DNA of 64,000 nt from a virus (IMGVR_UViG_3300044697_000029:1-64000), one strand, 5' to 3'; counted from the stretch's first letter, positions 23,303-59,126 are shown. Notes: generated by a model from the letters alone, not told the origin. A program made the numbers and translations.

Positions 23303-24349
23303 CTATGCCTCGGTTCGGATGTCGGCGAACAGCCCGGCGTCGCGCCCAAGGCGGCGTGTTGCCATACCACAGTGACCCGCTCCCAGCTCTATCCCAATAG
23401 CGTGCCGCTGCAACCGATCGGCGACTAAGCATGTGGTGAAAACGCCGGCGAACGGATCGCATACCACGTCTCCCGGTCTTGACCCGGCCCGGATACAAAT
23501 CTCGGCCACCTGATCCGGCATGACGGCGAAGTGTTCTTCTGCATATTGGGCGGGGCTGATCCACCACACTGACCTGAGATTGCCGCCCTCCGCAATTTGC
23601 TGGTCACGCTCCATCTTGTCCCACCGCTCGTTGAAGCCGGTGTGTCTGCGCGAATGGCCGCGTTGCTTATCCACTATACGCCGCTTTATGTCTGAGGCAT
23701 TCTGAACGCCAGCCAGATCATGGCTTTTGGTTGATTGCCCAATGTAGGGCGACGCGAGTTGCGTCTGCGTAGATGCTTTTGGCGCCGATCGCACGGCTTC
23801 GTGATCGTAGTAGTACCGCTCGCTCTTGCTTAACAGAAACACATATTCATGCGCGCGGGTAGTCCGATCAGTGCAGCTTTCTGGCATACCGTTAGGTTTG
23901 CCCCATACGTTGTCGGCGCGAAGATACCAGCCATCCGCCCGCAGCGCGAAAGCGACCATCCAGGGAATTCCAACCAGGTCCTTTGGTTTCAGGCCATTCC
24001 CAGCCCGCACGTTCGGCGAGTGTCCCGCTTGCTTCCACCCGGCATTCGAGTGCATGGAACGCGGCGCGTTGTATGTAGAACTGCTCGCGAAGCAGTCTCC
24101 CAAGTTGATCCACAGCGTGCCGTCGTCACGCAGGACGCGCCGACATTCGTGCATCACGCCGACGATTGTCTCAACGTATGCGTCTGGTGTCTCCTCCTGC
24201 CCGATTTCGAACGGCTTCAATGGGTCATCAGGCTTCAGGTACGATCGTTGCCGGAAGTAGGGCGGGGAGGTCACAATGCACTGCACGCTGCCATCCGCCA
24301 GTTCCGGCAGCCGCTCGCGGCAATCGCCCTGCATCACGGTGATTGTCAT
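23303..24349 (-). CDS. Beta-class DNA methyltransferase (N4-cytosine/N6-adenine)
   Basis: This codes for 348 aa. CIVTSPPYFRQRSY near the N-terminus is catalytic motif IV, and TLWINLGDCF follows. The SAM-binding motif I comes last (CDPFAGVFTTCLVADR), giving the beta-class order. The usual motif I is DPFxGSGTT; here VF replaces SG, which could weaken SAM binding. The region between holds the target-recognition part. The SPPY form leans towards N4-cytosine, but this is not decisive. Coupled by ATGA to a small zinc-ribbon gene. Confidence 0.72.
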   Translation of the reverse strand: MTITVMQGDCRERLPELADGSVQCIVTSPPYFRQRSYLKPDDPLKPFEIGQEETPDAYVETIVGVMHECRRVLRDDGTLWINLGDCFASSSTYNAPRSMHSNAGWKQAGHSPNVRAGNGLKPKDLVGIPWMVAFALRADGWYLRADNVWGKPNGMPESCTDRTTRAHEYVFLLSKSERYYYDHEAVRSAPKASTQTQLASPYIGQSTKSHDLAGVQNASDIKRRIVDKQRGHSRRHTGFNERWDKMERDQQIAEGGNLRSVWWISPAQYAEEHFAVMPDQVAEICIRAGSRPGDVVCDPFAGVFTTCLVADRLQRHAIGIELGAGHCGMATRRLGRDAGLFADIRTEA

Positions 24350-24501
24350 CGAGACACTGCGTCCGGACTACTGGCCTCGCGCGCATGCCGGCTTGCCCAC
24401 GTAAGCGCGCAATCCAGGCATAGTTCCGGCAGCCCGTCGATCTGCCGCACCGGGAACACCGCCTGCTCTGACGTGGCGCCACAATCCTCGCAGGTCCGCA
24501 T
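24346..24501 (-). CDS. 51-aa zinc-ribbon protein between two methylase genes
   Basis: The peptide has CEDCGATS and LCLDCALTW, a clean CxxC-x(22)-CxxC zinc ribbon. ATG 24501 shares a TGATG with the upstream methylase, and its stop overlaps the downstream methylase start (ATGA). Tight coupling makes a real gene likely; it could be an adaptor or regulator of either enzyme. Confidence 0.6.
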   Translation of the reverse strand: MRTCEDCGATSEQAVFPVRQIDGLPELCLDCALTWASRHAREASSPDAVSR

Positions 24502-25550
24502 CACTTCGCCTCCTCAAACAGCCGCGCCTGCGTTGCGATGGGCGTCGGTTCGGGGATGAACAGGTCGCGCTGGCGGTGGGCGGCTTCGATGCGGCGGCAG
24601 GCTATGTCGAAGTACGGTTCGTGTTTTTCGATGCCGACGAACCGCCGACCGAGTTTCAGGCATGCAACGCCGGTGGTTCCAGAACCAAGGAAACCATCCA
24701 CCACAAGCTGGTTGAGCTTCGTCGAAGTTCCGACGATGTGTTCCATGACGGAAAGGGGCTTTTCGCATGGGTGCTTACCGTCATAGCCTTGGATACAATT
24801 GTAATCCCATATGTCGCCTCTCATCCTCTCGTCATAAACAGAGAACGGCCGCCGCAGGTCTTCGTACTCCCGCCGCAGGTCTTCGTACTCCCGCCGCAGG
24901 AGAGACGTGTTCGAGCGTTGGAATAACTCCCGACACTTTTGATAGTCAGTTTGGTTCGGAAGGGATGATCCTTCCTCCCAACGCAGATAAAGAGCGCTGT
25001 CGCGGTCAATGTGATCAGCTATTTGGCGATACGAAAGGCCGGCCTCAATACGTTGTGATTTGAAGTAATCACCCAGCGGTCGAAAAACTCGCTTGTGAAG
25101 CGCATCGCAAGCTGCGTCGTAACCTAGTGCGTTCATCGCCGAAGCGTCGTCGCACTTCTGCGCAAATATGCATGCCTCCCAGTTTTGTTGGAACACTCGC
25201 ATATCATCGGATGCCTGCTTCATATGCCAACCTTGAGGCTTCCTCCAGCGTATCGAATTGAGAAATACAAAATTCTGCCGCACGAGACGTTGGACCTCCC
25301 ATTCCATTCTCGCCGACGCAAAGCAATAAAGACTCGCCCAGTCCTCCATGATCCCCGAGCATGAAGCAAGGATCGAGCCGAGCCATTCAAGGAACTTCCC
25401 CGCATCATCCCATTGACGGTCCCACCATTCGTCCTTCACTCGGAAGTACGGAGGGTCCATCACACACGCATCCACGCCGCTCAGAGTCGGCAGAATATCC
25501 CTACAATCACCCAACATCAGCGTAGCCGCCCCGATCCGCTCAACGCGCAT
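24501..25550 (-). CDS. Beta-class DNA methyltransferase with inserted HTH domain
   Basis: This codes for 349 aa from ATG 25550. ACVMDPPYFRVKDEWW is motif IV (DPPY, usually N6-adenine). VVDGFLGSGTTGVACLKLGR is an intact motif I, again in beta-class order. Between them, FKSQRIEAGLSYRQIADHID and YLRWEEGSSLPNQ form an XRE-like helix-turn-helix, probably part of target recognition. A 21-bp repeat encodes LRREYED twice. Confidence 0.72.
   Translation of the reverse strand: MRVERIGAATLMLGDCRDILPTLSGVDACVMDPPYFRVKDEWWDRQWDDAGKFLEWLGSILASCSGIMEDWASLYCFASARMEWEVQRLVRQNFVFLNSIRWRKPQGWHMKQASDDMRVFQQNWEACIFAQKCDDASAMNALGYDAACDALHKRVFRPLGDYFKSQRIEAGLSYRQIADHIDRDSALYLRWEEGSSLPNQTDYQKCRELFQRSNTSLLRREYEDLRREYEDLRRPFSVYDERMRGDIWDYNCIQGYDGKHPCEKPLSVMEHIVGTSTKLNQLVVDGFLGSGTTGVACLKLGRRFVGIEKHEPYFDIACRRIEAAHRQRDLFIPEPTPIATQARLFEEAK
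24851..24900 (-). repeat. 21-bp tandem repeat inside the methylase gene
   Basis: GCCGCAGGTCTTCGTACTCC plus C occurs at 24851-24871 and 24872-24892, followed by 8 bases of a third unit. It adds whole codons (REYEDLR repeated) in a charged linker just after the HTH insert, so copy number could vary by slippage without breaking the frame. Confidence 0.8.
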
Positions 25551-25627
25551 CACGCTGCCTCCATCCCAAACGCCACCCGCCAGCAGTCGGCGCACCAGCC
25601 GATGTCAGGCACCGCGCGGCGGATCAT
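25550..25627 (-). CDS. 25-aa Cys-pair micro-protein
   Basis: ATG 25627 overlaps the upstream stop (ATGA) and its TGA overlaps the methylase ATG (TGATG). The peptide contains PDIGWCADCWRVAF, a CxxC flanked by Trp. Coupling on both sides is the main evidence. Confidence 0.5.
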   Translation of the reverse strand: MIRRAVPDIGWCADCWRVAFGMEAA

Positions 25628-26250
25628 GGCAGCCATCCGATCGTCGGCGCGCCTCGATGGTCGCGCTGGAACACGTACCATGCGAACGCCACCGCACCAC
25701 CCTGCGCCTTCACGGCAGCGTCGCCGGGCGGCATACTGATACGTGATCGGAACTGCCACAGCCGCGCCAGCGTGCCGCGCGCGAACAGTTCCTGGTAACG
25801 GCGCTCTCCTTCCAACCAAGTCGTACGTTGCAGGACACACACCTTTCCAGTCGCAAAGGTCAACGCACGGCGCACGAACTGCACAGCGATACCAAAGGGC
25901 GGGTTGCTCACCACATTCGGCGGCGCATTCTGCCAGTCGGTTGCGAGGAAATCGACCCCGCCTTCGCCATAACCGCGGTCAACAAGGTCTGTGGCGAAGG
26001 TCTGGTAGCCGCGTGCTTTGCATGCCTCTGGGATATTCCCGCCACCGCAAGCCGGGTCCCAGATAGCGCCGCTGAAAGTCTCTACATCGAGAAGCGCGCA
26101 AATGGCACGGGCCGGTTCAACGTACCAGTCGTCAGTGTGCCTATCGTATCCCGAACTGCGAGGATTGCCGCGCGGGATCAGTTCCGGTGGCGCCTCGCTC
26201 CCCGGTCGCACGGCAATGGCCGGCGCGCCGCATGCGCAGGGGGTTGTCAT
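25624..26250 (-). CDS. Methyltransferase-like protein (NPPF type)
   Basis: This codes for 208 aa. GAIWDPACGGGNIPEACKAR is motif I, FATDLVDRGYGEGGVDF the acidic loop after beta-2, and VVSNPPFGIAVQFVRRAL motif IV. There is no recognisable target-recognition domain, so it may methylate DNA with little specificity or act with a partner. It starts in an ATGA overlap with the Gp88 gene. Confidence 0.65.
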   Translation of the reverse strand: MTTPCACGAPAIAVRPGSEAPPELIPRGNPRSSGYDRHTDDWYVEPARAICALLDVETFSGAIWDPACGGGNIPEACKARGYQTFATDLVDRGYGEGGVDFLATDWQNAPPNVVSNPPFGIAVQFVRRALTFATGKVCVLQRTTWLEGERRYQELFARGTLARLWQFRSRISMPPGDAAVKAQGGAVAFAWYVFQRDHRGAPTIGWLP

Positions 26251-27104
26251 GCGGCGTCCTTCCGGCTGCCGTGGCTCATTCCGTGGCCGATGAACACGAT
26301 CCGTTTGCCAGTGGCGCCCGGCGACCAGCACAGGCCGCACGTCGCACATGCCGCCGTCTTGTGGGTCTGCGCCGGGCAGATCAGACCCTCCGGCACATTG
26401 CTGCCCTCGGGCTGGCGCCAGATCGTGGTGGCCTGCATCGGCTGCGGGTTGTCGTCGGCAGCGACAGAGAACCGCATCATCCATCGGTCGGGATGCAGCG
26501 CGCCGAGCAGGTTCACCAGCCATCCGATTTGGCTTTCGGCGGGGTGCGCGGTGTAGCCGAACACGTGCAGTTCCGGCAGATCGCGCATCCATCGCCCCCA
26601 GGCGAGTGCGTAGGCCATATCCGGGAAGTCCCCGAGATTATGCAGCCGCACCACGAAGCCCGTCTGTGCGTGCTTCACAGCCGCCGCGCGTAGCTCCCTG
26701 TCCAGCGTCGGGACCAGAGCCGGCGTGTAGCGATGGCGCCGCGCGAGGGGCATGCCGTTGCCGAAGCACTCGCGCCATAGCTGGCAGGTGCGCGGACAGG
26801 TCTCGCGTTCGACCAGGGTCAGGTGGAAGATCGGCATGCCACGCCACGGGCCTTTCAGCACGACACGACCGAGCTTCGCGCTGTTGAAGCCGGAGACCAG
26901 AAGGCGCGGGGCTTTCTCCGGATCAATGATTGACTTCTGGAACAACGTCGTGGAGTTGACGATTGCTGGGTGCGTGGCAGGCAGAGCCGCATCCTTGCGG
27001 TTTGCGTGAGCGGCGGTCCCCTTAAAGCGAGTCAGGTAGCCACCGGGATCGCGGTGACAGCCGCCGTAAAAATCCTGCCATTGATGGGTCTGCGCATATG
27101 TCAT
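26247..27104 (-). CDS. Phage Gp88-like protein
   Basis: This codes for 285 aa from ATG 27104. KAPRLLVSGFNSAKLGRVVL and the cluster ETCPRTCQLWRECFGNGM are the signature of the phage Gp88 family. HNLGDFPDMAYALAWGRWM and a C-terminal Cys cluster (AACATCGLCW) followed by RIVFIGHG complete the pattern. The Cys arrangement suggests a metal or iron-sulphur centre, but no reaction is known. It sits among methylase genes and DUF5131, another Cys-motif family, so a shared DNA-modification role is possible. Confidence 0.68.
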   Translation of the reverse strand: MTYAQTHQWQDFYGGCHRDPGGYLTRFKGTAAHANRKDAALPATHPAIVNSTTLFQKSIIDPEKAPRLLVSGFNSAKLGRVVLKGPWRGMPIFHLTLVERETCPRTCQLWRECFGNGMPLARRHRYTPALVPTLDRELRAAAVKHAQTGFVVRLHNLGDFPDMAYALAWGRWMRDLPELHVFGYTAHPAESQIGWLVNLLGALHPDRWMMRFSVAADDNPQPMQATTIWRQPEGSNVPEGLICPAQTHKTAACATCGLCWSPGATGKRIVFIGHGMSHGSRKDAA

Positions 27105-41013: not shown

Positions 41014-41451
41014 ATGGCGCGCAACCGCACGACATTTCCACCCGGCAAAGGAACAGGATGGGGCGGTCCGGCCAGAGGGCCGGGCGCCGGTCCAAAGTTC
41101 GAGAAGTTCATGGAAGGCAACCAGACCGAGCATCCCGCGGGCGACGATTATCGCGAGCGTCGGCAGAAACGCCGCGAGTTGCGCGCCGCTGGCGCCGAAA
41201 GGCTTCAGCAGTTGAAGGACCATCTAGCCGATCTAGCCCTCAATGCCGAGCATGAAGCCACGCAGGTTAGCGCGACCGTCGCGTGGCTAAATCGGGAAGA
41301 GGGGATGCCGGCACAGACGAACAAGAATCTGAATGTCGATGTCATCAGCGGTCTCCCGCTCGACCAACAGCGAGCTATTGCGGCGGCTCTCGACGCTCTC
41401 CCCGACGACGCGGGCGACGATGCGGGAGGCGCTGCGCCGCAGCATCACTGA
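41014..41451 (+). CDS. Probable small terminase subunit
   Basis: This codes for 145 aa. The start RNRTTFPPGKGTGWGGPARG resembles the Gly/Pro-rich N-terminus of many small terminases. The central helices (AAGAERLQQLKDHLADLALN, VSATVAWLNREEGMP) and position directly before the large subunit support the call. It overlaps the large subunit start by 32 bases. No HTH is obvious, so certainty is moderate. Confidence 0.55.
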   Translation: MARNRTTFPPGKGTGWGGPARGPGAGPKFEKFMEGNQTEHPAGDDYRERRQKRRELRAAGAERLQQLKDHLADLALNAEHEATQVSATVAWLNREEGMPAQTNKNLNVDVISGLPLDQQRAIAAALDALPDDAGDDAGGAAPQHH

Positions 41452-42139
41452 GGCCGAGCGCGGCCGGTTCATCGACACACTCTATCCCCACACGGGGCCT
41501 CTACGCCGCGAACTCTACATCAAGCACCTGGAGTTCTGGCGCGCGGGCGCGGTGCATGACGAACGGGCGTTCGTTGCAGGGAATCGGACCGGTAAGACCA
41601 CGTGCGTATCATACGAGGATGTACTGCACCTGACCGGTGATTATCCGGAGTGGTGGGAAGGCAGGCGCTTCGATCGCCCGATCACATGCTGGGCCTGCGG
41701 CACAGATGCCAAGGCAGTGCGCGAAAAGCTGCAGCCTGCATTGATTGGGCCGGCCGAAGCGCGAGGGACTGGGATCATCCCCCGCGACCGGCTTCTGCGG
41801 ACCTTCGCACGAAGCGGCACGGCGGACGCAATCGACTTTGCACTCGTTCGCAACCAGTTCGGCGGATTGTCGCGCCTGGTGTTCAAGGCATACGAACAAG
41901 GGCGTGAATCGTTCCAGGCCGCCGAGGTCGATGTCGTCCACCTGGACGAAGAGCCGCCGATGGCGATCTACACCGAGGCGCTGACCCGCACGCTCTCGAC
42001 GGTGCCCGGGCGGCGTAACGGTATTCTGGTCTTCAGTTTCACGCCACTCCAAGGACTGAGCGACGTGGTTCTGCAGTTCCTGCCTGGCGGTGCATACCCC
42101 GCAACGGAAGAGGTCCGCAAACAGGCGTGGGGATGGTAA
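41420..42139 (+). CDS. Large terminase subunit, N-terminal (ATPase) part, interrupted
   Basis: ATG 41420 opens the ATPase domain. RAFVAGNRTGKTTC is Walker A and EVDVVHLDEEPPMA is Walker B with the catalytic Glu. FSFTPLQGLSDVVLQF is the coupling motif. Translation stops at TAA 42137 after EEVRKQAWGW. The homologous protein continues at 42626 in the same frame, 489 bases on. Joining the two gives 493 aa, the usual length of such terminases. The packaging motor cannot be complete without splicing or without two separately translated halves. Confidence 0.78.
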   Translation: MREALRRSITEAERGRFIDTLYPHTGPLRRELYIKHLEFWRAGAVHDERAFVAGNRTGKTTCVSYEDVLHLTGDYPEWWEGRRFDRPITCWACGTDAKAVREKLQPALIGPAEARGTGIIPRDRLLRTFARSGTADAIDFALVRNQFGGLSRLVFKAYEQGRESFQAAEVDVVHLDEEPPMAIYTEALTRTLSTVPGRRNGILVFSFTPLQGLSDVVLQFLPGGAYPATEEVRKQAWGW

Positions 42140-42625
42140 ATGCGGGTTGTTCTACCCTAGGTAGGTGCGGTATATCTCCCCGATGTGCCCCACCCAGCCT
42201 TCTGCCGTAGAACGGCTAGCCAAGCGAATAAGAGAGAGTGTGCGCGCCGATATAGCAGCCGCGCTTCTGCCTAATGTTCCGTCTGCCTCGGACGGAGAGC
42301 ATTTCCGTCCCATGCAATTTGATCCAATGAGTCAATCGCGGCCCGCATTGCAGCCGCCGCAAAAAGATCAAGGAGAACCGTCGTCAAAGCGCCATTCCGG
42401 TGCGCGAACTTAATTGCTAGGTACTCGACGGTCCCCGTCTGCCCCACGCAGGGGAGCGCCTTGAGGCTCAACGCCACATCGCCACGAGCGTACGCGCTGC
42501 GCGCTTCTTGTTCGGTAAACGAAGGTTCGTGCCATCCTCTGTCGCCGCTGCAACACAGTTTTAGGGCAGGTCAGCGACTCAAAAGAACTGCTTCACGCAA
42601 TGGCTGACTACCTCGCGGGAGGTGG
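42137..42625 (+). other. 489-nt in-frame insertion in the terminase gene (intron-like)
   Basis: Removing 42137-42625 joins AWGW to NITRYVVQAGW in frame with nothing missing from the expected sequence. The junction is ambiguous by two bases (GG on both sides). The insert has stops in the terminase frame. Its 3' end has a 7-bp stem (GGTCAGC at 42569-42575 with GCTGACT). I looked for group I (P7/S element) and group II (GUGYG, domain V) landmarks and could not confirm either. It also carries a leftward open frame. Confidence 0.6.
42271..42570 (-). CDS. Leftward open frame inside the terminase insertion
   Basis: The frame is open for 99 codons between stops. It reads as real protein: GWHEPSFTEQEARSAYARGD, then QTGTVEYLAIKFAHRNGALT and DLFAAAAMRAAIDSLDQI. 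There is no ATG; GTG 42477 would give 68 aa. It may be a truncated gene carried by the inserting DNA. Confidence 0.4.
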   Translation of the reverse strand, partial: PALKLCCSGDRGWHEPSFTEQEARSAYARGDVALSLKALPCVGQTGTVEYLAIKFAHRNGALTTVLLDLFAAAAMRAAIDSLDQIAWDGNALRPRQTEH

Positions 42626-43390
42626 AACATCACGAGATACGTAGTACAAGCCGGATGGGCCGACTCACCGCACCTTTCGCCAGACGCCACGGAGGAGCTT
42701 GCGCGCTCGTATCCACCGAATGAACGGGACGCCCGCATGCGCGGCATCCCTTCGCTCGGGGCGGGCGCGATTTACCCCGTGCCGGAAAGCGAAGTCGTCG
42801 TGCAGCCGTTCAAAGTGCCGCACTATTGGCCTATCTGCTACGCCCTGGATGTCGGCTGGAACCGCACTGCTGCGCTATGGGCCGCTCACGACACAGAGAC
42901 CGACACAGCCTATCTCGTGAGCGAGCACTATCGAGCGCACGCCGAGCCGCCGATCCACGCTGAGGCGATCAAGGCGCGTGGCGCGTGGATACCTGGAGTA
43001 ATCGACCCAGCGGCGCGCGGACGCAGCCAGAAGGACGGCGCCGCCCTGATGACGACCTATCAGGAGCTTGGGCTAAGGCTAACCGCCGCGAACAATGCCG
43101 TCGAAGCGGGCATTTACGAGGTGTGGACGCGGTTTTCAACGGGACGCCTGAAGGTCTTCGCGACGCTGCAGAACTTCCTCGCGGAGTATCGTATCTACAG
43201 GCGCGATGAAAAAGGCCACATCGTGAAGGACAGCGACCACCTCATGGACGATTGTCGCTACATCTGCATGAGCGGCCTTGATATCGCGGCATTCCGACCG
43301 CCAGAACTGGTGCGCGGTCTGGTCGGGAAGCCGAAACAGGAATGGTCCCCCCGCGCCGCACTCGATTCCGATGGATACGGATTGCGATGA
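42626..43390 (+). CDS. Large terminase subunit, C-terminal (nuclease) part
   Basis: Starting at NITRYVVQAGW this frame encodes the terminase nuclease domain. The acidic residues are CYALDVGWN, PGVIDPAARG and HLMDDCRY, the RNase H-like triad. EARSYPPN-type and GIPSLGAGAIYPVPESE segments match large terminases. There is no start codon before the ATG at 42737, which would lose conserved residues, so expression probably depends on removal of the 489-nt insert. Confidence 0.75.
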   Translation, partial: NITRYVVQAGWADSPHLSPDATEELARSYPPNERDARMRGIPSLGAGAIYPVPESEVVVQPFKVPHYWPICYALDVGWNRTAALWAAHDTETDTAYLVSEHYRAHAEPPIHAEAIKARGAWIPGVIDPAARGRSQKDGAALMTTYQELGLRLTAANNAVEAGIYEVWTRFSTGRLKVFATLQNFLAEYRIYRRDEKGHIVKDSDHLMDDCRYICMSGLDIAAFRPPELVRGLVGKPKQEWSPRAALDSDGYGLR

Positions 43391-43603: not shown

Positions 43604-43780
43604 GTGACCGAATCCGTCTGTCTTTTCGACTCCCTTCGCGACCTGTTTCATGCGGTGCAGTACGAGCGGTGGTTGGGTCGGGTGTACGGAAAGATCGAGG
43701 AGCATGAGATGACCGTGAAGGCCATGCTGACGGCCTACGCGATCGACCGCGGTCTATCATGGCGCCCGACGAATGCCTGA
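43604..43780 (+). CDS. 58-aa hypothetical protein
   Basis: GTG 43604 follows the preceding TAG directly. The protein is helical (SLRDLFHAVQYERWLGRVYG). It overlaps the portal start by 8 bases. Function unknown. Confidence 0.5.
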   Translation: MTESVCLFDSLRDLFHAVQYERWLGRVYGKIEEHEMTVKAMLTAYAIDRGLSWRPTNA

Positions 43781-45614
43781 ATCTGCTGCCCAACGCCGCT
43801 ACGCCCGCGGCAACGGTCTCGATCCGGCACAACCGTTCTATTTCCAGTCATCCCCAACGATGCTGGGGATGCAGCCGGCAAACGACAGCGCGCCGGCGCC
43901 CGTTGCTCCGTCGTGGCTGGGTTGGCCCGACCTCTACCGCCATCTGGAAGCGCGGCTCGCGGCCGAAAAGACGTGGCGGCTGTCATGGTGGCGGCTGTGG
44001 GGAGATATCGCCCGGTTCGAGCTTCCGAGGCGGTACCACGCGTTTTTGACGGAGAACGACTACAACAGGGGCACGCGCCGCGACGGTGCCATCCTCGACA
44101 ACACCGCGACGCAGGATGGTGAGACCTGTGCCGGCGGCATCATGACGGTCTGCACGGACCCCGATCGGGAGTGGATCAAGCTGGGCGCGCCGGCCGGCGT
44201 CGAGGTCGATCGCGACGGGCAGATGTTCTTCGATGACCTGACCGAACGGCTCCGCTTCGTGCAGGATGAGACCAACTTTTACGAGAGCCTGAACCAGTTC
44301 TATGAGGACCTGACGTTCTTCGGAACCGGCGTGGCGATCGACTATGACGATGCCGACAACATCTTCGTCTGCCGGAATCCGTGTGCCGGCGAGTTCTGCC
44401 TCGCGAGCGGTGCCGGCAACGAGGACCAGTCGCTTTTCGTCGAGGAACGCCGGACGGTTGCGCAGATCGTTGAGATGTTCGGGCTGGACAACTGCCCGCT
44501 CGATATTCGCCAGCAGTTCGTCCAGAAAGGTGGCGCGCTGGAACAGGAGCGCATCGTCGGACATGCCATCGAGCCGAATTTCGCGCTGTCGGACGGTAAC
44601 GGTGGGTCCGTTGGCAGGTTGCCGGGCCATTTCACGTGGCGCGAGGTGTACTGGATCGTCGGCAAATCCGACACCGCGCCGCTGAGCATCGCGGGCTTTC
44701 AGGAGAAGCCCTTTGCTGCCTCGCAGTGGCATCGTGTGTCCAACGACCCCTACGGCCACGGGCCGGGATCGACGGTGCTTGGCGACACGATCGAACTGCA
44801 AATCCTCACGGCGCGGCAGGCCGAACTGGTGGAGAAGATCGGTCGGCCCCCGATGACGGCGCCGGTCTCGCTCAAGAACGAACCGCACTCGATCAAGCCC
44901 GACCAGATCACGTATTACGATGCGACCACTTCCGCGCCGCAGTTCAAGCCGATATTCGAGGTCGATGCGCGCGCCTTGGTTGGCATCAACGCCTCGATCG
45001 CCGCCGTGCAGGAGCGCATCCATCGCGGCATGCACGCCGACCTGTTTCGGATGATCCAGGAACTGTCACAACGCCCAGGCCAGAAGACGGCAACCGAGAT
45101 CGACGCGCTTCGGGAAGAACGTCTGATGCAACTCGGGCCGGTGATCGGCCGCGTCTATCGCTACGGCATCCGCCCACGGATCAACCGGCAACTGGCCATC
45201 TTGCGGCGCCGCGGGCTGTGGCCGAAGATTCCGCAATCGATGCGCCGGCTGCCGTTGCAGATCGAGTTCATCTCGATGCTGACCCTGGCGCAGCGGGCCG
45301 GGGCGGTCGGCTCGATCGAACGGACGTTTGCCTTCGCCCAATCGCTGGCGCCCGATCCGCGGTTCGCTGAGAGCGGCGACGTGCTGGATGCCGACGAAGC
45401 CGTGCGAGAAGCGGCATCCTTGCGCGGCGCACCGTCCCGGATTATCAGGGCGGCGGCGGACGTGCGGAGGATCAGGGCGGCACGCCAGCAGGCCGTGTCG
45501 GCGCAGCAGCAGGCACAGACCGCGCAAGCAGCCGTGGCGGGAGCGCAGCAGTTGTCGCAGACCAGTCTCAATCCGGGGAACGCCCTGGGGGCCATGTTGC
45601 AGGGGGCACGGTGA
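43773..45614 (+). CDS. Portal (head-to-tail connecting) protein
   Basis: This codes for 613 aa, normal for podoviral connectors. WWRLWGDIARFELPRRYHAF, then DNTATQDGETCAGGIMTVCT, opens the conserved region. NQFYEDLTFFGTGVA, HRVSNDPYGHGPGSTVLGD and the clip/stem region ending in a Gln/Ala helix (QQQAQTAQAAVAGAQQ) match the family. Twelve copies should form the DNA gate. The N-terminus carries SAAQRRYARG, a motif seen in other virion-region genes here. Confidence 0.82.
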   Translation: MPESAAQRRYARGNGLDPAQPFYFQSSPTMLGMQPANDSAPAPVAPSWLGWPDLYRHLEARLAAEKTWRLSWWRLWGDIARFELPRRYHAFLTENDYNRGTRRDGAILDNTATQDGETCAGGIMTVCTDPDREWIKLGAPAGVEVDRDGQMFFDDLTERLRFVQDETNFYESLNQFYEDLTFFGTGVAIDYDDADNIFVCRNPCAGEFCLASGAGNEDQSLFVEERRTVAQIVEMFGLDNCPLDIRQQFVQKGGALEQERIVGHAIEPNFALSDGNGGSVGRLPGHFTWREVYWIVGKSDTAPLSIAGFQEKPFAASQWHRVSNDPYGHGPGSTVLGDTIELQILTARQAELVEKIGRPPMTAPVSLKNEPHSIKPDQITYYDATTSAPQFKPIFEVDARALVGINASIAAVQERIHRGMHADLFRMIQELSQRPGQKTATEIDALREERLMQLGPVIGRVYRYGIRPRINRQLAILRRRGLWPKIPQSMRRLPLQIEFISMLTLAQRAGAVGSIERTFAFAQSLAPDPRFAESGDVLDADEAVREAASLRGAPSRIIRAAADVRRIRAARQQAVSAQQQAQTAQAAVAGAQQLSQTSLNPGNALGAMLQGAR

Positions 45615-45859
45615 TCAAATCCTATCCCGCCCATCCCCAGGTTCTGCAACGCGACGCCGGGTCTGAGGCGATGCTGATGTGGCCCAGGAACGCCGAGATT
45701 GATCTCGCGCACGTGACGGGCGCCTATCCGGTGCCATACGTGCCGCCGATGGTTGATCCGGTGTCTAACGTGGTCGCGGTGCAGCATGGCGGCCAGACGA
45801 CGGTGATCCACGCCGATTTCGACCAGTTCCAGCGGGATTGGGAGGCAAGCCGGCGATGA
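45611..45859 (+). CDS. 82-aa hypothetical protein
   Basis: GTG start overlapping the portal stop. Contains HVTGAYPVPYVPPMVDPV and ends HADFDQFQRDWEASRR. Conserved-looking small head-region protein of unknown role. Confidence 0.5.
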   Translation: MIKSYPAHPQVLQRDAGSEAMLMWPRNAEIDLAHVTGAYPVPYVPPMVDPVSNVVAVQHGGQTTVIHADFDQFQRDWEASRR

Positions 45860-46716
45860 GCCGCGAAAGCAAACAGGACGATCCGTGGGAGCGCCGTGCA
45901 CTCTACGGGTGCGCCGCCGCTCTTGGTGGCAACGTGCCGCAAGCAATCCGGGATTTCGCAGGCCATCTTGACCAGGCCGCTGATGTGTTGGCCGATGCGC
46001 CCTGGATTGAGGGCAATGCTATGAGCGGCCACATCTTCGAACGATATGGGGGAGGCGGCGCCCGCAGTAGGCTCGGGGTGGGAAGGAGGCTCGCGCTCTC
46101 CGAAATACCGGAATGGATCGTTCGCATGAGCGATGACGCTGCGCAATGCAGGATGGCCGAGCTCGGGGCCGACCATGAAGCTCTGGGGCAAACTGTTGCC
46201 ACGGACATTTTCTATGGTAGCCCGCAGGCGGACCCATGCAGTTGCATCGGGCTATCGGCCTTTTGCGAGTCACCCCAAGGAAACGTGGTTGACGGCGGTG
46301 GTGACGGCGGCTCGTCGATCTGGCTGCTCTCATGGCACCAGGAGGAACTTTATATCGCCTATCCAAAAGGCAGTATGGCTGGCCTCATGCGCCACGATCT
46401 CGGTCTTCAAGTGGGAGAGCGGGATGCAACGGGCGCCCGAGAGGTTGTTTACACAGAAGCGTCGGAAGTTTCGTTGGCGATAATTCCTCAGAGGGCACAA
46501 AGCGTAGTGCGTATCGCAAACCTAGCTGGTGTCGTGGGAGCGCGGCTGGATCAGTTGATGAGAGCGGCTCTGGGCATGCTCGGCGATACAAAAGGAAGGC
46601 CGACATTTTACATGAACCGCACGGTAGCGGCGGCCCGTGGCAGTACAGAGCCGCTGGATGACTATCCGGTGCGTATCGCCGACGAACTGCGTTTTGATGA
46701 GGCGAGGGTTGCCTGA
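45856..46716 (+). CDS. Truncated paralogue of the major capsid protein (1)
   Basis: This codes for 286 aa. It aligns along its length with the capsid protein at 49903. ADVLADAPWIEGNAMSGHIF matches NEIYDDLVWKEGNTNTGHVY; ATDIFYGSPQADPCSCIGLS matches AGQFFYGNGQTNPASFTGLS; SSIWLLSWHQEELYIAYPKG matches SSIWLIGWSPRSIYGVFPRG; PTFYMNRTVAAA matches PAIYFNRTVGGF. It ends VRIADELRFDEARVA, nearly as in paralogue 2. It lacks part of the N-terminal arm. A minor capsomer, a pentamer form or an assembly chaperone are possible. Confidence 0.7.
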   Translation: MSRESKQDDPWERRALYGCAAALGGNVPQAIRDFAGHLDQAADVLADAPWIEGNAMSGHIFERYGGGGARSRLGVGRRLALSEIPEWIVRMSDDAAQCRMAELGADHEALGQTVATDIFYGSPQADPCSCIGLSAFCESPQGNVVDGGGDGGSSIWLLSWHQEELYIAYPKGSMAGLMRHDLGLQVGERDATGAREVVYTEASEVSLAIIPQRAQSVVRIANLAGVVGARLDQLMRAALGMLGDTKGRPTFYMNRTVAAARGSTEPLDDYPVRIADELRFDEARVA

Positions 46717-47147
46717 TGTCTCGCGAAACCGAGTTCCTCACGCGCCACAAGGAAGACCTGACGCAAGCCGCCGAGATGTGCCGCACACTTCAGCGCCAGG
46801 CCGTCGAGGTCTCGCCGCGGCATCGCACCTACCTGCGGCTTCTGCAGACCTGCAAGCGGCTGGAAGGCACCTGCCGTCAGATGGCACATGAGCGCGGCGA
46901 CGACTTCACGTGGTTGCAGCTTGGGCACCACTATCACGCGGTATCGCGGAAGGTGACGGCGCTGCGGCACGAGGGGAAATGGCTGCTGTTCGGGAAGTTG
47001 GCTGAGGTATTCGAGGCTGGGATGCCGCAGGTCGGGCGGCTGGCCACGACTGCGACGGGGCTGACCAGCATGAGCACTTCGCCGCTGCTGATCCTGCCGC
47101 CCTACCTGCGTGGCGGCAAAATGGATGGACGGATTATCGTGCCATGA
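46716..47147 (+). CDS. 143-aa hypothetical head-region protein
   Basis: It starts in a TGATG overlap. Helical throughout (LTQAAEMCRTLQRQAVEVSP, LQTCKRLEGTCRQMAHERGD), ending LLILPPYLRGGKMDGRIIVP. It lies between two capsid paralogues and probably acts in head assembly. No family recognised. Confidence 0.5.
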   Translation: MSRETEFLTRHKEDLTQAAEMCRTLQRQAVEVSPRHRTYLRLLQTCKRLEGTCRQMAHERGDDFTWLQLGHHYHAVSRKVTALRHEGKWLLFGKLAEVFEAGMPQVGRLATTATGLTSMSTSPLLILPPYLRGGKMDGRIIVP

Positions 47148-47833
47148 CCGCACGATGGCTGAGTGACCCGGGTCGGCCCACTGAACTGGCGTGGTTCTTT
47201 GACGCGCCGTGGGAAGCGGCCAACCAGCGGCGCTGGCACAAGTACAATGTCCTTGCCACATCGTCGCCTATACGGATGATGTCAGGTGTGCTTGCGCTCA
47301 GCGCACCAGCAAAAGACGTGCTGCGGCAGGTAATCTACGGCAACCCCGTCGCTCAGAGCGTCGCGGGTCAGCCGCTGACCGAGATGATGGGCCTCGCGCC
47401 TATGTTTGCTAGCCGCGATCCGGGCGACGCCGCCAATGCGGTGAATGTCCTGGATGCTGGTGGCACGAGCAACCTATGTTCCGCGTGGTTGATCGGGTGG
47501 GGACCGCGCACGGTATTCATGGTCTCGCCAGATGGGGATCCACCTTCCCTCGAAGGCGAATGCGGCATTGCGGTTGCGGACTGGCGCTATGTGGTGCGAA
47601 TCGCGAACATCGACGCTGTTTCGCCGAACTTCAATGCGCTGGCAATGATGGCGATGGCGAGTATCCGTCTGCCGCGCCTGACCTGCGATGAGAACCTGCG
47701 GCCAATGTTCTATGTCACAAAGGACGTGGAAAATCGGCTGAAGGACGATGTGTCGAAGCACGTTGAGCGGTTCAGTGGCGTCCCTATCCGTGTGATTGAT
47801 GAACTGCGGAGCGACGAGGCGCGCATCGCTTGA
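47144..47833 (+). CDS. Truncated paralogue of the major capsid protein (2)
   Basis: This codes for 229 aa. AANAVNVLDAGGTSNLCSAW matches AANAVNVFDGGGRSTNNSSI of the capsid. WLIGWGPRTVFMVSPDG matches WLIGWSPRSIYGVFPRG; VADWRYVVRIANID matches VEDWRWGVRIANLD; PMFYVTKDV matches PAIYFNRTV. It ends IRVIDELRSDEARIA, almost as paralogue 1. It is shorter at the N-terminus and in the region after the P-loop-like ARG of the capsid, so it is unlikely to form the main lattice alone. Confidence 0.7.
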   Translation: MTARWLSDPGRPTELAWFFDAPWEAANQRRWHKYNVLATSSPIRMMSGVLALSAPAKDVLRQVIYGNPVAQSVAGQPLTEMMGLAPMFASRDPGDAANAVNVLDAGGTSNLCSAWLIGWGPRTVFMVSPDGDPPSLEGECGIAVADWRYVVRIANIDAVSPNFNALAMMAMASIRLPRLTCDENLRPMFYVTKDVENRLKDDVSKHVERFSGVPIRVIDELRSDEARIA

Positions 47834-48189
47834 GTGACTATCCCTACGCCTCCCGCGTCGCGGCTGCTGATGCCGCTATCGAAGACGTCCTCGATCCAGG
47901 TGCGGCTGCCGCTCGCGAGGAACAGAACCGCGAACACGAACGCGCCAGACAGCAACGCCGAGCGTTCCTGATGCAGACCATGCAGCATCCCGAAGGCCGG
48001 AAGTGGCTCAAGGAGATGCTGGACCGGTTCCACACGTTCGAGGCCCGCATGGCATCGGTGAACGGCATGGCGCCCGATCCGATGGGCACAATGCTTCTGG
48101 CCGGCGAGCAACGCTGCGGCTGGTGGATTTGGGAGCAGTTGGACGACGCCGATCCAGTCGTGGCTTCGAGACTGCGGAGGAATGCGTGA
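47830..48189 (+). CDS. 119-aa small head-assembly-region protein
   Basis: TTG start overlapping the previous stop. After a charged helix, MQHPEGRKWLKEMLDRFHTF and MLLAGEQRCGWWIWEQL follow a pattern common to small podoviral proteins before the scaffold gene. Function unknown. Confidence 0.6.
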   Translation: MSDYPYASRVAAADAAIEDVLDPGAAAAREEQNREHERARQQRRAFLMQTMQHPEGRKWLKEMLDRFHTFEARMASVNGMAPDPMGTMLLAGEQRCGWWIWEQLDDADPVVASRLRRNA

Positions 48190-48422
48190 GAACGATCATC
48201 AAGGTGGACGAAGGCTGCCTCAACGGGCTGCTGACGACGCGGTTCATCGTGTTGGATCACGACTGCTGGTCGTTCGGCGAGCGTGTCAGTCAGGTCGATG
48301 CGGCGCTCGCCTCCATTCGGGACAGCGAAGACGCGGAGTGCCTGCGGGTGTTCGGCCAGGAGTTCTGCCCTGCTGTCGTGCCAGATGAATGTGAGACTCT
48401 GGTCGCGGCGAAGATCAGATAG
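48186..48422 (+). CDS. 78-aa hypothetical protein
   Basis: GTG start in a GTGA overlap. Begins MRTIIKVDEGCLNGLLTTRF; the centre SFGERVSQVDAALASIRDSE is helical. Its end overlaps that of a leftward gene by 8 bases. No family recognised. Confidence 0.5.
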   Translation: MRTIIKVDEGCLNGLLTTRFIVLDHDCWSFGERVSQVDAALASIRDSEDAECLRVFGQEFCPAVVPDECETLVAAKIR

Positions 48423-48588
48423 GGCGCGCGGTCCCCGGCAACTCCATCGTAGGGAACGGCACTCCGGCTGGAGTGCAGAAATACCATCCTGCCGCTTCAA
48501 CCGAGTAGCGGAACGCCGCATCCTCGGATTCCCGTTCGCGCCGATCCGCTTCGACCATCGCTTGACCGGTGTAGGTGCGCTCGCTCAT
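48415..48588 (-). CDS. 57-aa leftward gene inside the virion operon
   Basis: ATG 48588 has GGGAGAG upstream. MSERTYTGQAMVEADRRERE leads to FRYSVEAAGWYFCTPAGVPF. Opposite to every neighbour, it is probably an inserted accessory gene. Confidence 0.5.
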   Translation of the reverse strand: MSERTYTGQAMVEADRRERESEDAAFRYSVEAAGWYFCTPAGVPFPTMELPGTARPI

Positions 48589-48625
48589 GATTTGCTCTCC
48601 CTGCGGCACTAGGGAAGTTCAAGCG

Positions 48626-49057
48626 TCATGCCACGCTCCGCGTTTGACGCGATGCGGGTCGGTAGGTCGTCATCTGTAACCGGCGTCGCTCATGATCGCC
48701 CCCTTCCCTCAGCGGCAACGCGGACCGTTCAGCGGGCGCTACGCCATCCATGATGTTGCGCGGCAGCACAGTCCGCACCGACACGACCGCTCCGTTGCTG
48801 TTTCGGTCGTCTAACGAGATGTGCGGTGCGTAAACCGCCAGCGGGGCGGTCTGACGTTCTGTCGCGACTGCGTTCCGCGGCACGAATTGCATCTCATGGA
48901 ATGCCCCATCGTCACCACGCTCGAAGACGCCTTCGCTTGTGGCGACGAACAGCCGGTCCTTGAACACGACCATTGAGATGATCGGCACTTTGCTCGTCGC
49001 GACCAGTTCCATGTTGCGGGGCGGCTCTGCGTCCATGTCCACACCTTGAGGTTTCAT
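48626..49057 (-). CDS. 143-aa leftward gene with propeller-like repeats
   Basis: ATG 49057 lies in a CATG shared with the scaffold start on the other strand. PIISMVVFKDRLFVATSEGV with ERGDDGAFHEMQF reads like one blade of a beta-propeller and its turn. The C-terminus is basic and repetitive. It may be a fragment of a larger structural or adhesin gene. Confidence 0.5.
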   Translation of the reverse strand: MKPQGVDMDAEPPRNMELVATSKVPIISMVVFKDRLFVATSEGVFERGDDGAFHEMQFVPRNAVATERQTAPLAVYAPHISLDDRNSNGAVVSVRTVLPRNIMDGVAPAERSALPLREGGDHERRRLQMTTYRPASRQTRSVA

Positions 49058-49886
49058 GTCCGACAGTTCTACCGCAGCAGAAACGCCCGCGCCAGCGTCG
49101 GAACCGGCTCCCGCAGCCGCTGCACCGGCGCCCGAGCCTGTCGCTGCGCCGGCCACCGAGGTAACGCCCGCAGCCACCCCAGAGCCGGTCGCCGAACCGG
49201 CAGCCCCATCCCCCGAGCCGGAGCCGGCCGCAGCCGCAGGAGAGCCTGCGCCCGCCACGGTCCAGGATCCGGCCGCAGCCGAACTGGAGAAGGCGCCGGA
49301 GGCTGCCGAACCGGTCGCAGAGCCGCCGAAGCCGGAACCGCCGACCTACACCGATTTCAAGTTCCCGGACGGTGTGAAGGTCGCCCCCGAAGCTATGACC
49401 GCCGCAACCAAGGTGTTCGGCGAGTTCGGCCTAACCCAGGAGCAGGCGCAAAGGCTGATCGACATTCATGCCGAACAGCAGCAAGCGGCGGTTAAGCAGT
49501 TCACCACTGCGGCCACGGACTACTGGAACGCCGAGTCCAGGAAATGGGTTGCCGAGGTCGAGAAGACATTCGGCAACCAGCTCAACACCAACATAGAGCG
49601 TGCCCGCGCGGTTTGGTCCGACGTGCTGCCCAAGCAAGCCGATCGTGACCGTCTGTTCGGCGCGCTGAACGACACCAAGATCGGCGACCACCCCATGCTG
49701 GCCCGCGCGCTGGCGGAGGTCGGCCGCCGCTTCGAGCAAATCTACCAGTTGACCGGAACCAATAGCTGGGATGCCGCGATGAGACGGCTGCGTGAACCGG
49801 CCGCGCCGCCACCTGCCCAACCTGCCCGTGCGCCTGGTGCCGCCGGGCGACCTGCCGACCGCCGTTACAGCGGCACCCGAGCATAG
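49056..49886 (+). CDS. Scaffolding protein
   Basis: This codes for 276 aa. The first 90 residues are Ala/Pro/Glu-rich and disordered. FKFPDGVKVAPEAMTAATKV with GLTQEQAQRLIDIHAEQ is the helical core typical of phage scaffolds, ending in another Pro-rich stretch and PADRRYSGTRA. The position directly before the capsid gene supports the call. The same DRRY tail occurs in two later small genes. Confidence 0.7.
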   Translation: MSDSSTAAETPAPASEPAPAAAAPAPEPVAAPATEVTPAATPEPVAEPAAPSPEPEPAAAAGEPAPATVQDPAAAELEKAPEAAEPVAEPPKPEPPTYTDFKFPDGVKVAPEAMTAATKVFGEFGLTQEQAQRLIDIHAEQQQAAVKQFTTAATDYWNAESRKWVAEVEKTFGNQLNTNIERARAVWSDVLPKQADRDRLFGALNDTKIGDHPMLARALAEVGRRFEQIYQLTGTNSWDAAMRRLREPAAPPPAQPARAPGAAGRPADRRYSGTRA

Positions 49887-49902
49887 AGAAGGAGCTTGAA
49901 CG

Positions 49903-50958
49903 ATGGCCACCGGCCAATACCTGACGCTTGTCGATCTCGCGCGGCGCACCGACCCTGACGGTGAGGCGGCGGACATTGCCGAACTGCTTTCCCAGGCCAA
50001 CGAGATTTACGATGATCTCGTCTGGAAAGAAGGCAACACCAACACCGGGCACGTCTATACGATGCGGACCTCCATCCCGAAGGGCTGGTGGCGCTTCATC
50101 GGCCAGGGTGTGCCGGGCAGCAAGTCCACCACGGCGCAGGGTCGCACCAACTGCGGCGACCTGGAAATGAACTCGACCATTGATCTCAAGCTGGTCGAAA
50201 TGGCGCCGGATCAAAACCAGTTCCGCTACGATGAAGACAACGCCATCCTGGAAGGCGCCAGCCAGACTGTGGCTGGCCAGTTCTTCTATGGTAACGGCCA
50301 GACCAACCCAGCATCGTTCACCGGCCTCTCGAACTACTACAACACGCTGGAAACCTCGACGGCCGCGAACGCAGTCAACGTGTTCGACGGCGGCGGACGG
50401 TCCACTAACAATTCGTCGATCTGGCTGATTGGTTGGTCGCCGCGCTCGATCTATGGCGTCTTCCCGCGCGGCATGAAAGCCGGCGTTGAGCTGCAGCCGC
50501 TCGATGAAGTTGTGCTGGCCTACGACAGCCTGGGCAATCCGTACCGCGCCAAGATCACATGGTTCCGGCAGATGGCTGGGCTGTGCGTCGAAGACTGGCG
50601 CTGGGGCGTCCGCATCGCCAACCTGGACGTGACCAACGCAGCGGCTGGCGGTCTGGCTGGCCCGAATGCGTATGACATCTTCGTCGGGCTGTCCAAGGCG
50701 GTGAAGCGCTTGCCGAAGATGGCGCGCGGGCAAAGCGGCATCACCGAGACCGACGCTCGCAATGAGCGCGGGATGACGGTACGGCCGGCCATCTACTTCA
50801 ACCGCACTGTCGGCGGCTTTGCTGATGTGCAAGCGATACGTGACCGCAACGTGTTGCTCGGCCCGAGGGACTACGCTGGCGAGCCGGTCACGTCGTTCCG
50901 CGGCATTCCGATGCGCACGCAAGACCAGATTCTGTCCACCGAAACGCAGGTCACCTGA
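49903..50958 (+). CDS. Major capsid protein
   Basis: This codes for 351 aa after AAGGAGC. TLVDLARRTDPDGEAADIAE forms the N-terminal arm, EGNTNTGHVYTMRTSIPKG the E-loop region, and SIWLIGWSPRSIYGVFPRG with RWGVRIANLDVTN the P- and A-domain strands. RPAIYFNRTV and FRGIPMRTQDQILSTETQV close the A-domain. This is the pattern of HK97-fold podoviral capsids followed by a Bbp16-type cement gene. There is no protease gene, so maturation is without a prohead protease. Confidence 0.82.
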   Translation: MATGQYLTLVDLARRTDPDGEAADIAELLSQANEIYDDLVWKEGNTNTGHVYTMRTSIPKGWWRFIGQGVPGSKSTTAQGRTNCGDLEMNSTIDLKLVEMAPDQNQFRYDEDNAILEGASQTVAGQFFYGNGQTNPASFTGLSNYYNTLETSTAANAVNVFDGGGRSTNNSSIWLIGWSPRSIYGVFPRGMKAGVELQPLDEVVLAYDSLGNPYRAKITWFRQMAGLCVEDWRWGVRIANLDVTNAAAGGLAGPNAYDIFVGLSKAVKRLPKMARGQSGITETDARNERGMTVRPAIYFNRTVGGFADVQAIRDRNVLLGPRDYAGEPVTSFRGIPMRTQDQILSTETQVT

Positions 50959-51097: not shown

Positions 51098-51631
51098 GTG
51101 GCGATCAATGACGCACAGCTCATCTTTGACAGCAACGTCTCCCTCGCCATCGCGGCGCCGGGGCAGCCGTCCTCGGAGACCATCGACCTGATGGGAGTCG
51201 GGGTCGGGCAGGCGCCCCCGAACTACTTTGGCGTGCAGGATGCGGTGTTCGGGGAAGACCCCGGCATCGGCGACGGGGCAAGCCCGCCGGTTCTGCAAGT
51301 CATCGTCGGCACGGCGTTCGTTGCCGTGGCAGGCGCCACGCTCCGGGTGCAGTTCCAGGAATCGGTGGACAGCGGCGCCCCTGGGTACACGCCTGCCGCC
51401 TGGAAGACCGTGCTGCAGACCGATGATCTGCCGGCGTCGGTTCTGACGGCGGGCGCCAAGATCGCCGAGATGGCCATCCCGCCGCGGTATCCCGGCGCTG
51501 CGTTCCCCCGCTATCTGCGGCTGAACTACCTTTTGAATGTCGGTGGTTCGAGCTTCAGCGCGGGCACGATCGCGATCGCGAACATCGTCACGGGCCGCGA
51601 CGACACCCCTGCGTATCCCGCCGGTTACTGA
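51098..51631 (+). CDS. Bbp16-like capsid cement protein
   Basis: This codes for 177 aa from GTG 51098. INDAQLIFDSNVSLAIAAPG, then VGQAPPNYFGVQ and FPRYLRLNYLLNVGGSSFSA, follow the pattern of Bordetella phage BPP-1 Bbp16, a beta-rich trimeric decoration protein that clamps capsomers. Directly behind the capsid gene, as in that phage. Confidence 0.75.
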   Translation: MAINDAQLIFDSNVSLAIAAPGQPSSETIDLMGVGVGQAPPNYFGVQDAVFGEDPGIGDGASPPVLQVIVGTAFVAVAGATLRVQFQESVDSGAPGYTPAAWKTVLQTDDLPASVLTAGAKIAEMAIPPRYPGAAFPRYLRLNYLLNVGGSSFSAGTIAIANIVTGRDDTPAYPAGY

Positions 51632-58358: not shown

Positions 58359-59126
58359 ATGAAGACTTGCAAGAGTTGCGGTCAGACGAAAGCGCCAGAT
58401 GAGTTCCTTCCAGAGCCTCGTGTGCGCGACGGCTTGACGGCGAGATGTCGCACTTGCCTGTTGGAGTATGGCCGACAGTGGGCAGTGGCGAATGCCGGAA
58501 GCGTCAAACGGTCCAGGGAGGCGTACAAGGAACGGAATGCTGACCGGCATCGAGCAAACCGCGCTGCCGCGAAAGAGCGCAACACGGAGGCTAGACGCCT
58601 CCGAGCCGCCGAGGCTCGCGTTGCCAGAGGGCGGGCGCTTCTTGACCGAGACGCAGAGTTGCGTAAGCAGATCGACGGGGTCAATGTGCGTCTCTGCTCA
58701 AAGTGCCGGCGCTACCAACCATACTCCGCCTTCTCGCCAGCCATCGGGAGGGGTGACGGCCTACAGCCCTCCTGCAAAGCATGCGGCGCTATGGCTGCCA
58801 GAAAAAGCCGCGCAGCGGCGACGTACGAGCAGCGCGAAGCGAAGCGCCGCTATATGTTGCCATACGGGCTAAAGCGCCTCTATGGAATTTTGCTTGAGGA
58901 CTACCAGCGAATGAGGGCCGTGCAGGAAGAACGTTGTGGGGTTTGCCATGATCCACTACCGACCGGCCGAAGGTGCCATGTTGACCATGACCATCGAACT
59001 GGCATCGTTCGTGGGCTGCTCTGTGGGCGATGCAATAATGGGTTGGGCCAATTTCGTGATGACCCAGCGACGCTTCGCGCGGCTGCTGCATACTTAGAAA
59101 ACTCGCGAGTGAGGGAAGCTGCATAG
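58359..59126 (+). CDS. Recombination endonuclease VII-like HNH protein
   Basis: This codes for 255 aa. Two N-terminal Cys modules (KTCKSCGQTKAPDEFL with CRTC, then LCSKCRRYQPYSAFSP with CKAC) precede the endonuclease VII core: ERCGVCHDP, CHVDHDHRTGIVRGLLCGRC and NNGLGQFRDDP. Such enzymes cut branched DNA or act as free-standing HNH genes in phages. It lies between virion genes, where homing-type nucleases often sit. Confidence 0.72.
   Translation: MKTCKSCGQTKAPDEFLPEPRVRDGLTARCRTCLLEYGRQWAVANAGSVKRSREAYKERNADRHRANRAAAKERNTEARRLRAAEARVARGRALLDRDAELRKQIDGVNVRLCSKCRRYQPYSAFSPAIGRGDGLQPSCKACGAMAARKSRAAATYEQREAKRRYMLPYGLKRLYGILLEDYQRMRAVQEERCGVCHDPLPTGRRCHVDHDHRTGIVRGLLCGRCNNGLGQFRDDPATLRAAAAYLENSRVREAA

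Follow-up and report, generated by a model that had tools for sequence, protein, structure and literature searches.

In the head operon of a soil phage we identified two genes, here called P1 and P2, whose products are homologues of the major capsid protein (MCP) of the same phage, lack parts of it that link neighbouring capsomers, and were found in none of 26 related viral contigs. We tentatively interpret P1 and P2 as accessory, dispensable capsid mimics that would act on capsid assembly or on capsid recognition. The window analysed here comprises bases 1-64000 of a linear viral metagenome record of 84,249 bases.

Two capsid paralogues in the head operon

The gene order of the head operon is TerL, portal, an 82-aa ORF, P1, o143, P2, o119, a scaffold/protease-like gene, the MCP and a Bbp16-like cement gene, and the head type is that of Bordetella phage BPP-1 and phage epsilon15. 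From the portal onwards these genes are on the plus strand. The portal (head-tail connecting) protein of 613 aa is encoded at 43773..45614 (PF12236, E 6.6e-87; phrog_332, E 1.6e-102), and the gap between it and P1 is occupied by the 82-aa ORF (45611..45859), which has no family match and is replaced by other small ORFs in the relatives. P1 (45856..46716, 286 aa; PF20911, E 2.5e-32) is followed by o143 (46716..47147, 143 aa), a conserved head-operon protein present between portal and scaffold in most relatives, then by P2 (47144..47833, 229 aa; PF20911, E 3.5e-26) and by o119 (47830..48189, 119 aa), another conserved head-operon protein with a weak match to phrog_528. The scaffold/protease-like protein (49056..49886, 276 aa; phrog_458, E 1.2e-22), the MCP of the GP7 family (49903..50958, 351 aa; PF20911, E 9.7e-95) and the cement protein (51098..51631, 177 aa; PF21190 Bbp16, E 2.5e-6) complete the set. 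P1 and P2 each overlap their neighbours by 1-4 bases, in frame, with the ATG of P1 overlapping the end of the 82-aa ORF and its stop codon overlapping the ATG of o143, and these overlapping start and stop codons rather suggest that both genes are expressed as part of the operon.

One or two ORFs lie on the minus strand within this plus-strand operon (48415-49050), and were not found in the 26 relatives. The large terminase subunit is split, in the window (41333-42139 and about 42617-43390) as well as in the relatives L005, L007 and L010. The ATPase part ends with AWGW and a stop codon at the same place in the four phages. The spacer that follows measures some 480 bases in the window but only a few in L005, and beyond it the nuclease part restarts with ITRYVVQAGW.D.PHLS or a closely similar sequence. 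An apparent intein is seen in the terminase ATPase domain of L007 (960-2080), at the Walker A motif (GNRTGK-ALLNGTPVLTPNGF...VVTHNSFCN). Elsewhere in the window, an Endonuclease VII-type gene (58359-59126) matches a Lar-like restriction-alleviation family in its first residues, and the minus strand carries a run of three DNA methyltransferase-like genes (23303-26592). A search of the window against Rfam gave no match, and a tRNA search found none.

The initial annotation described three capsid-fold genes at this place, two of them short and located between the portal and scaffold genes; this location, as well as the coordinates, the lengths and the shared sequence anchors that it quoted for the three proteins, are all correct. 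Pairwise BLASTP aligns P1 with the MCP at 29% identity over 280 columns (E 2e-22), P2 with the MCP at 26% over 241 columns (E 2e-20), and P1 with P2 at E 6e-10. All three proteins match PHROG 212 (major head protein) and score above the curated cut-off of 27 bits for Pfam GP7 (PF20911), with 112 bits for P1, 92 for P2 and 317 for the MCP. Against a profile built from the MCPs of the close group, P1 and P2 reach 90.6 and 77.6 bits, compared with a maximum of 3.4 bits for 1000 shuffled versions of each protein against MCP profiles, so that the possibility raised at the outset of an alignment no better than that of shuffled sequence does not apply. Family matches, pairwise alignments and shuffles all agree, and the homology of P1 and P2 to the MCP is real and far above chance. 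A six-frame search with custom MCP profiles of the first 84,000 bases of the record found these three GP7 genes only.

To examine the fold, we modelled P1 and P2 with AlphaFold2, using alignments of window and locus proteins, which are mostly MCPs and may bias the models towards them. The P1 model (mean pLDDT 89.7, pTM 0.86) has a long spine helix at residues 95-120, and its best match among solved structures is the BPP-1 MCP (3j4u; TM 0.73, E 1e-19), followed by the Carin1 and epsilon15 MCPs. The P2 model (pLDDT 77.4) is confident from about residue 53 on, and also matches the BPP-1 MCP best (TM 0.65, E 9e-14). P1 is thus predicted to have the HK97-like fold of BPP type, with spine helix, P-domain and A-domain, whereas for P2 the prediction covers the core only (residues 53-229); in both cases the capsid fold anticipated by the annotation is borne out by the models.

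The alignment reveals which parts are missing. P1 has lost about 18 residues at the tip of the E-loop. The losses of P2 are larger and comprise most of the N-terminal region with its N-terminal loop, the whole E-loop, the spine helix in its first half and, in the middle region, a beta-hairpin. Truncation does not account for the entire length gap to the MCP, since a C-terminal insertion, SGITETDARNERGM, is present in the MCPs of this clade and missing not only from P1 and P2 but also from BPP-1, epsilon15-like and other members of the family. The graded truncation claimed for the two proteins therefore stands for the E-loop tip of P1 and the larger losses of P2, but not for the part of the length difference that is due to this insertion. 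In BPP-1, the E-loop and the P-domain of neighbouring capsomers form a non-covalent chainmail, and the cement protein contacts the N-terminal loop and the E-loop (PMC3863775). With the tip gone in P1 and the whole loop gone in P2, neither has an E-loop fit for such a chainmail with a neighbouring P-domain, which indicates that they are homologues of the MCP but not working major capsid proteins. By analogy with the BPP-1 model, P1 and especially P2 could meet their neighbours through the core, but would not carry the chainmail.

Distribution, age and origin of P1 and P2

The relatives are 26 viral contigs, several of them short fragments, with MCPs 91-48% identical to that of the window; for 19 relative loci the operon region was listed gene by gene. 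Portal, o143, o119, scaffold, MCP and cement occur in a common order across this set, in which P1 and P2 were both sought and neither was found. In the nearest relative, L005 (MCP 91% identical), portal, o143 and o119 are joined without P1 or P2, with spacings of 209 bases from portal to o143 and 114 bases from o143 to o119. Since a shell of 91% identical MCP is encoded there without either gene, P1 and P2 are not required for such a shell. In other relatives the same two junctions hold unrelated small accessory ORFs.

Wider searches gave the same picture. Viral contigs searched with P1 alone and with P2 alone yielded no orthologue, and searched with both together yielded ordinary MCPs only. 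Each of 86 cultured phage records with the GP7 capsid type has a single matching place and no second gene, and a survey of bacterial genomes, 398 from one family and 385 from the class, revealed no second GP7 gene that is intact, a stop-interrupted GP7 fragment being present in one genome of this survey. P1 and P2 are best described as accessory insertions at two hot junctions: they have the traits of accessory (moron-like) genes, occurring in one genome only, at junctions where close relatives lack them, and with a distinct composition, slightly so for P2. The GC3 of P1 is 0.62 and that of P2 0.70, compared with 0.73-0.84 for most neighbours; the low value of P1 fits either a foreign origin or relaxed codon selection. 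The start of P1, MSRES (45856-45876), resembles that of o143, which is VSRESEF in L005 (5530-5550) and MSRETEF in the window, as though the insertion of P1 had produced a second copy of the o143 start.

P1 and P2 stand on long branches in a tree of 93 proteins (2.0 and 1.7 changes per site, respectively), compared with a median of 0.10 and with 0.065 for the MCP of the same phage. They join the tree near the base of their own phage's clade, a position flagged for long-branch attraction that does not settle their origin. Where paralogues have identical residues, they share the codon in 38/84, 24/70 and 17/60 cases, while 35.2, 29.5 and 23.9 are expected from codon usage; codon sharing is no higher than codon usage predicts, indicating that synonymous sites are saturated. 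A recent duplication of the phage's own MCP was considered and rejected, because of this saturation and of the branch lengths. P1 and P2 retain 76% and 71% of the near-invariant MCP columns, as against 12-23% of the variable columns, and their frames are stop-free over 286 and 229 codons, which is seen in 0 of 20,000 and in 0.04% of shuffles, respectively. Saturated codons, retained near-invariant residues and open frames together point to long purifying selection on the core. On these sequence grounds P1 and P2 appear to be old and long selected on their core, although this selection is not proven within the present genome, for want of orthologues. As their divergence far exceeds that of the surrounding MCPs, they probably arrived already diverged, or else were lost from every sampled relative.

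Signal-bearing ORFs made of capsid or portal pieces

When relatives were searched with the MCP profile, the matches other than MCPs and P1/P2 were limited to a few small ORFs, of which the three top-scoring ones (in L030, L018 and L023) start with an RR-plus-hydrophobic signal. The ORF of L030 (5061-5348, minus strand) encodes 96 aa and contains a 53-residue piece of the MCP C-terminus, 41.5% identical to its own MCP. A scan with this ORF revealed a family whose members begin almost uniformly with RR..F..GL....AAPAIVRAGSLMPVK but differ in their tails; the fuller, twin-arginine-like consensus of the signal is RR..F..GL....AAPAIVRA.SLMPVK, from which we infer that these products may be exported. 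P1 also contains a weak RR-plus-hydrophobic stretch (WERRALYGCAAALGG), which we do not accept as a signal, its hydrophobicity being too low and no support being found.

The scan comprises 80 loci with 73 distinct tails. Tails made of capsid or portal fragments occur in L030, in L156 (4138-4485, minus strand), L200 (5716-6287, plus strand), L203 (7333-7887) and L215 (9881-10363), and further signal-bearing ORFs are found in other loci of L132-L142 and L179-L257. In L133 the tail joins an MCP piece to the portal motif RSPAMDALPDL (PF12236, E 2e-4). In L030, L156 and L200, the last with two, the signal-bearing ORFs lie on the opposite strand at the portal-o143 junction, which is the site of P1 in the window. 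To determine whether the tails match capsid genes more often than other small ORFs do, we rely on an unbiased test whose database was every long non-overlapping ORF of the signal loci, with the starting contig left out (E<1e-3); two earlier enrichment tests gave far smaller p-values, but with a database partly picked after the matches were known. In the unbiased test 10/72 tails match a long ORF in frame, compared with 28/1500 control small ORFs (Fisher 4e-6), and no genuine out-of-frame match was obtained, the four listed being identical overlaps with shadow frames. Nine of the ten matching tails correspond to MCPs of four unrelated types (GP7, phrog_283, phrog_334 and phrog_371) or to a portal (phrog_156), and a fifth MCP type, phrog_9953, came from other comparisons. 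The tail of L203 shares 27/36 residues with its own MCP but only 10/27 comparable codons, and this combination of high residue identity and low codon sharing indicates selection on the peptide.

The signal-bearing ORFs share with P1 and P2 an origin from capsid genes, the phage group and the junction, with no evidence of common descent. Phages of this kind might make capsid mimics on purpose, mostly as signal-bearing fragments, with P1 and P2 as a large unexported form, and use them as decoys, triggers or poisons outside the shell in conflicts over capsid assembly or sensing; we regard this wider proposal as doubtful.

Possible roles and comparison with known systems

We prefer to see P1 and P2 as capsid mimics because they are dispensable, have lost linking parts, conserve the core, and occur alongside a pattern of capsid-fragment ORFs. 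They would have entered two junctions of a BPP-1/epsilon15-type head operon already diverged, and would act as partial MCP mimics that still present core surfaces. Being unable to close the chainmail rings of E-loop and P-domain, they could enter or bind an assembly and not complete it. Most likely they would serve to disturb the assembly of rival phages or satellites, or to engage host factors that sense the capsid protein. In relatives, the accessory ORFs composed of capsid pieces at the junction of P1 may point to a function of capsid-like proteins away from the shell. The host defence CapRel-SJ46 is directly triggered by newly synthesised capsid protein (PMC9712102), and Tab, a protein encoded by a prophage, prevents invading phages from assembling virions (PMC10884400). 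Such known cases of capsid sensing and assembly blocking make a mimic role reasonable by analogy, with no homology claimed. As late head-operon genes, P1 and P2 are expected to be produced together with the capsid, which would equally suit a structural part.

The initial annotation had suggested that the two proteins might form vertices or cap the portal vertex. Minor structural subunits that replace or cap the MCP at such special sites, or alter the head size, would agree with the capsid fold kept in the predicted structures and with the position in the head operon, with its overlapping start and stop codons. T4 gp24, located at the vertices, is a precedent, and the head may be larger than usual, the record being at least 84 kb, compared with near 39-46 kb for BPP-1/epsilon15-type phages. 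However, relatives with nearly the same MCP have neither gene, and neither do relatives' records of 58-70 kb (e.g. L034), which indicates that genomes of this size can do without them; in addition, P2 has none of the elements through which capsomers are joined (N-terminal loop, E-loop and one half of the spine helix). We find no support for a role at the vertices, as a portal cap or as any other required part, given that L005 is without P1 and P2, that neither was found in any of the 26 relatives and that the genes occupy accessory-gene slots, and we consider minor structural subunits rather unlikely. The third suggestion of the annotation, a regulation of assembly, is still possible.

The very long branches, the deletions graded between P1 and P2, their presence in one genome only and the atypical codon usage of P1 would also be expected of relics, that is, of ancient capsid genes, or parts of them, trapped in the operon, no longer of use and being lost. 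Against this, both frames are open over lengths that shuffles never or hardly ever reach, every deletion is in frame, 71-76% of core residues are retained and both genes are tightly coupled to their neighbours by start and stop codons, which makes decay an improbable explanation. An assembly or binning artefact, with a piece of another phage joined into the contig, might be suspected in a metagenomic record whose P1 and P2 occur in no relative, but the two genes flank o143, whose homologues occupy the portal-to-scaffold interval of most relatives, and two independent misjoins so precise as to leave 1-4 base in-frame overlaps are implausible; we regard it as very improbable.

P1 and P2, for which we favour a mimic role, belong to a known kind, that of extra capsid-fold proteins, and the class of capsid-fragment ORFs is the more unusual lead. 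Extra capsid paralogues have been known, and what is unusual here is the occurrence of graded, E-loop-less copies in one phage and in no relatives; open-access literature on paralogous or truncated HK97-fold capsid genes returned nothing relevant. With P1 and P2 it becomes testable whether a role beyond the shell is open to the capsid fold. The amino-acid conservation of the capsid-fragment ORFs suggests that they are functional, in which case they would represent a class of phage proteins spanning at least five capsid families, for which a search of open-access literature on exported capsid fragments gave nothing relevant and no description.

The MCPs of BPP-1 (Bbp17, 3j4u), Carin1 (8cjz) and epsilon15 (gp7, 3j40) are of the same family as P1 and P2 by profile and predicted structure, and in the alignment P1 and P2 follow the order of elements of the BPP topology; in contrast to these MCPs, they have losses of loop, helix and hairpin and adjoin a complete MCP. 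The vertex protein gp24 of T4 is a nearly full-length paralogue of the MCP gp23 that occurs throughout the T4-like phages. P1 and P2 resemble it as second capsid-fold proteins encoded beside the MCP, but they are truncated and restricted to one genome of the sampled group, with none of the conservation across a phage group that gp24 displays. With Tab (PMC10884400) they would share the blocking of an invader's virion assembly, which for P1 and P2 is proposed only; the target of Tab is the tail tape measure, and Tab is not described as a capsid homologue. The signal-bearing ORFs are likewise accessory and made up of segments of the capsid protein of their own phage, and in three GP7 phages share the junction of P1, whereas they differ in carrying a signal, in lying on the opposite strand and in consisting of fragments of 20-60 residues, P1 and P2 having nearly the whole fold.
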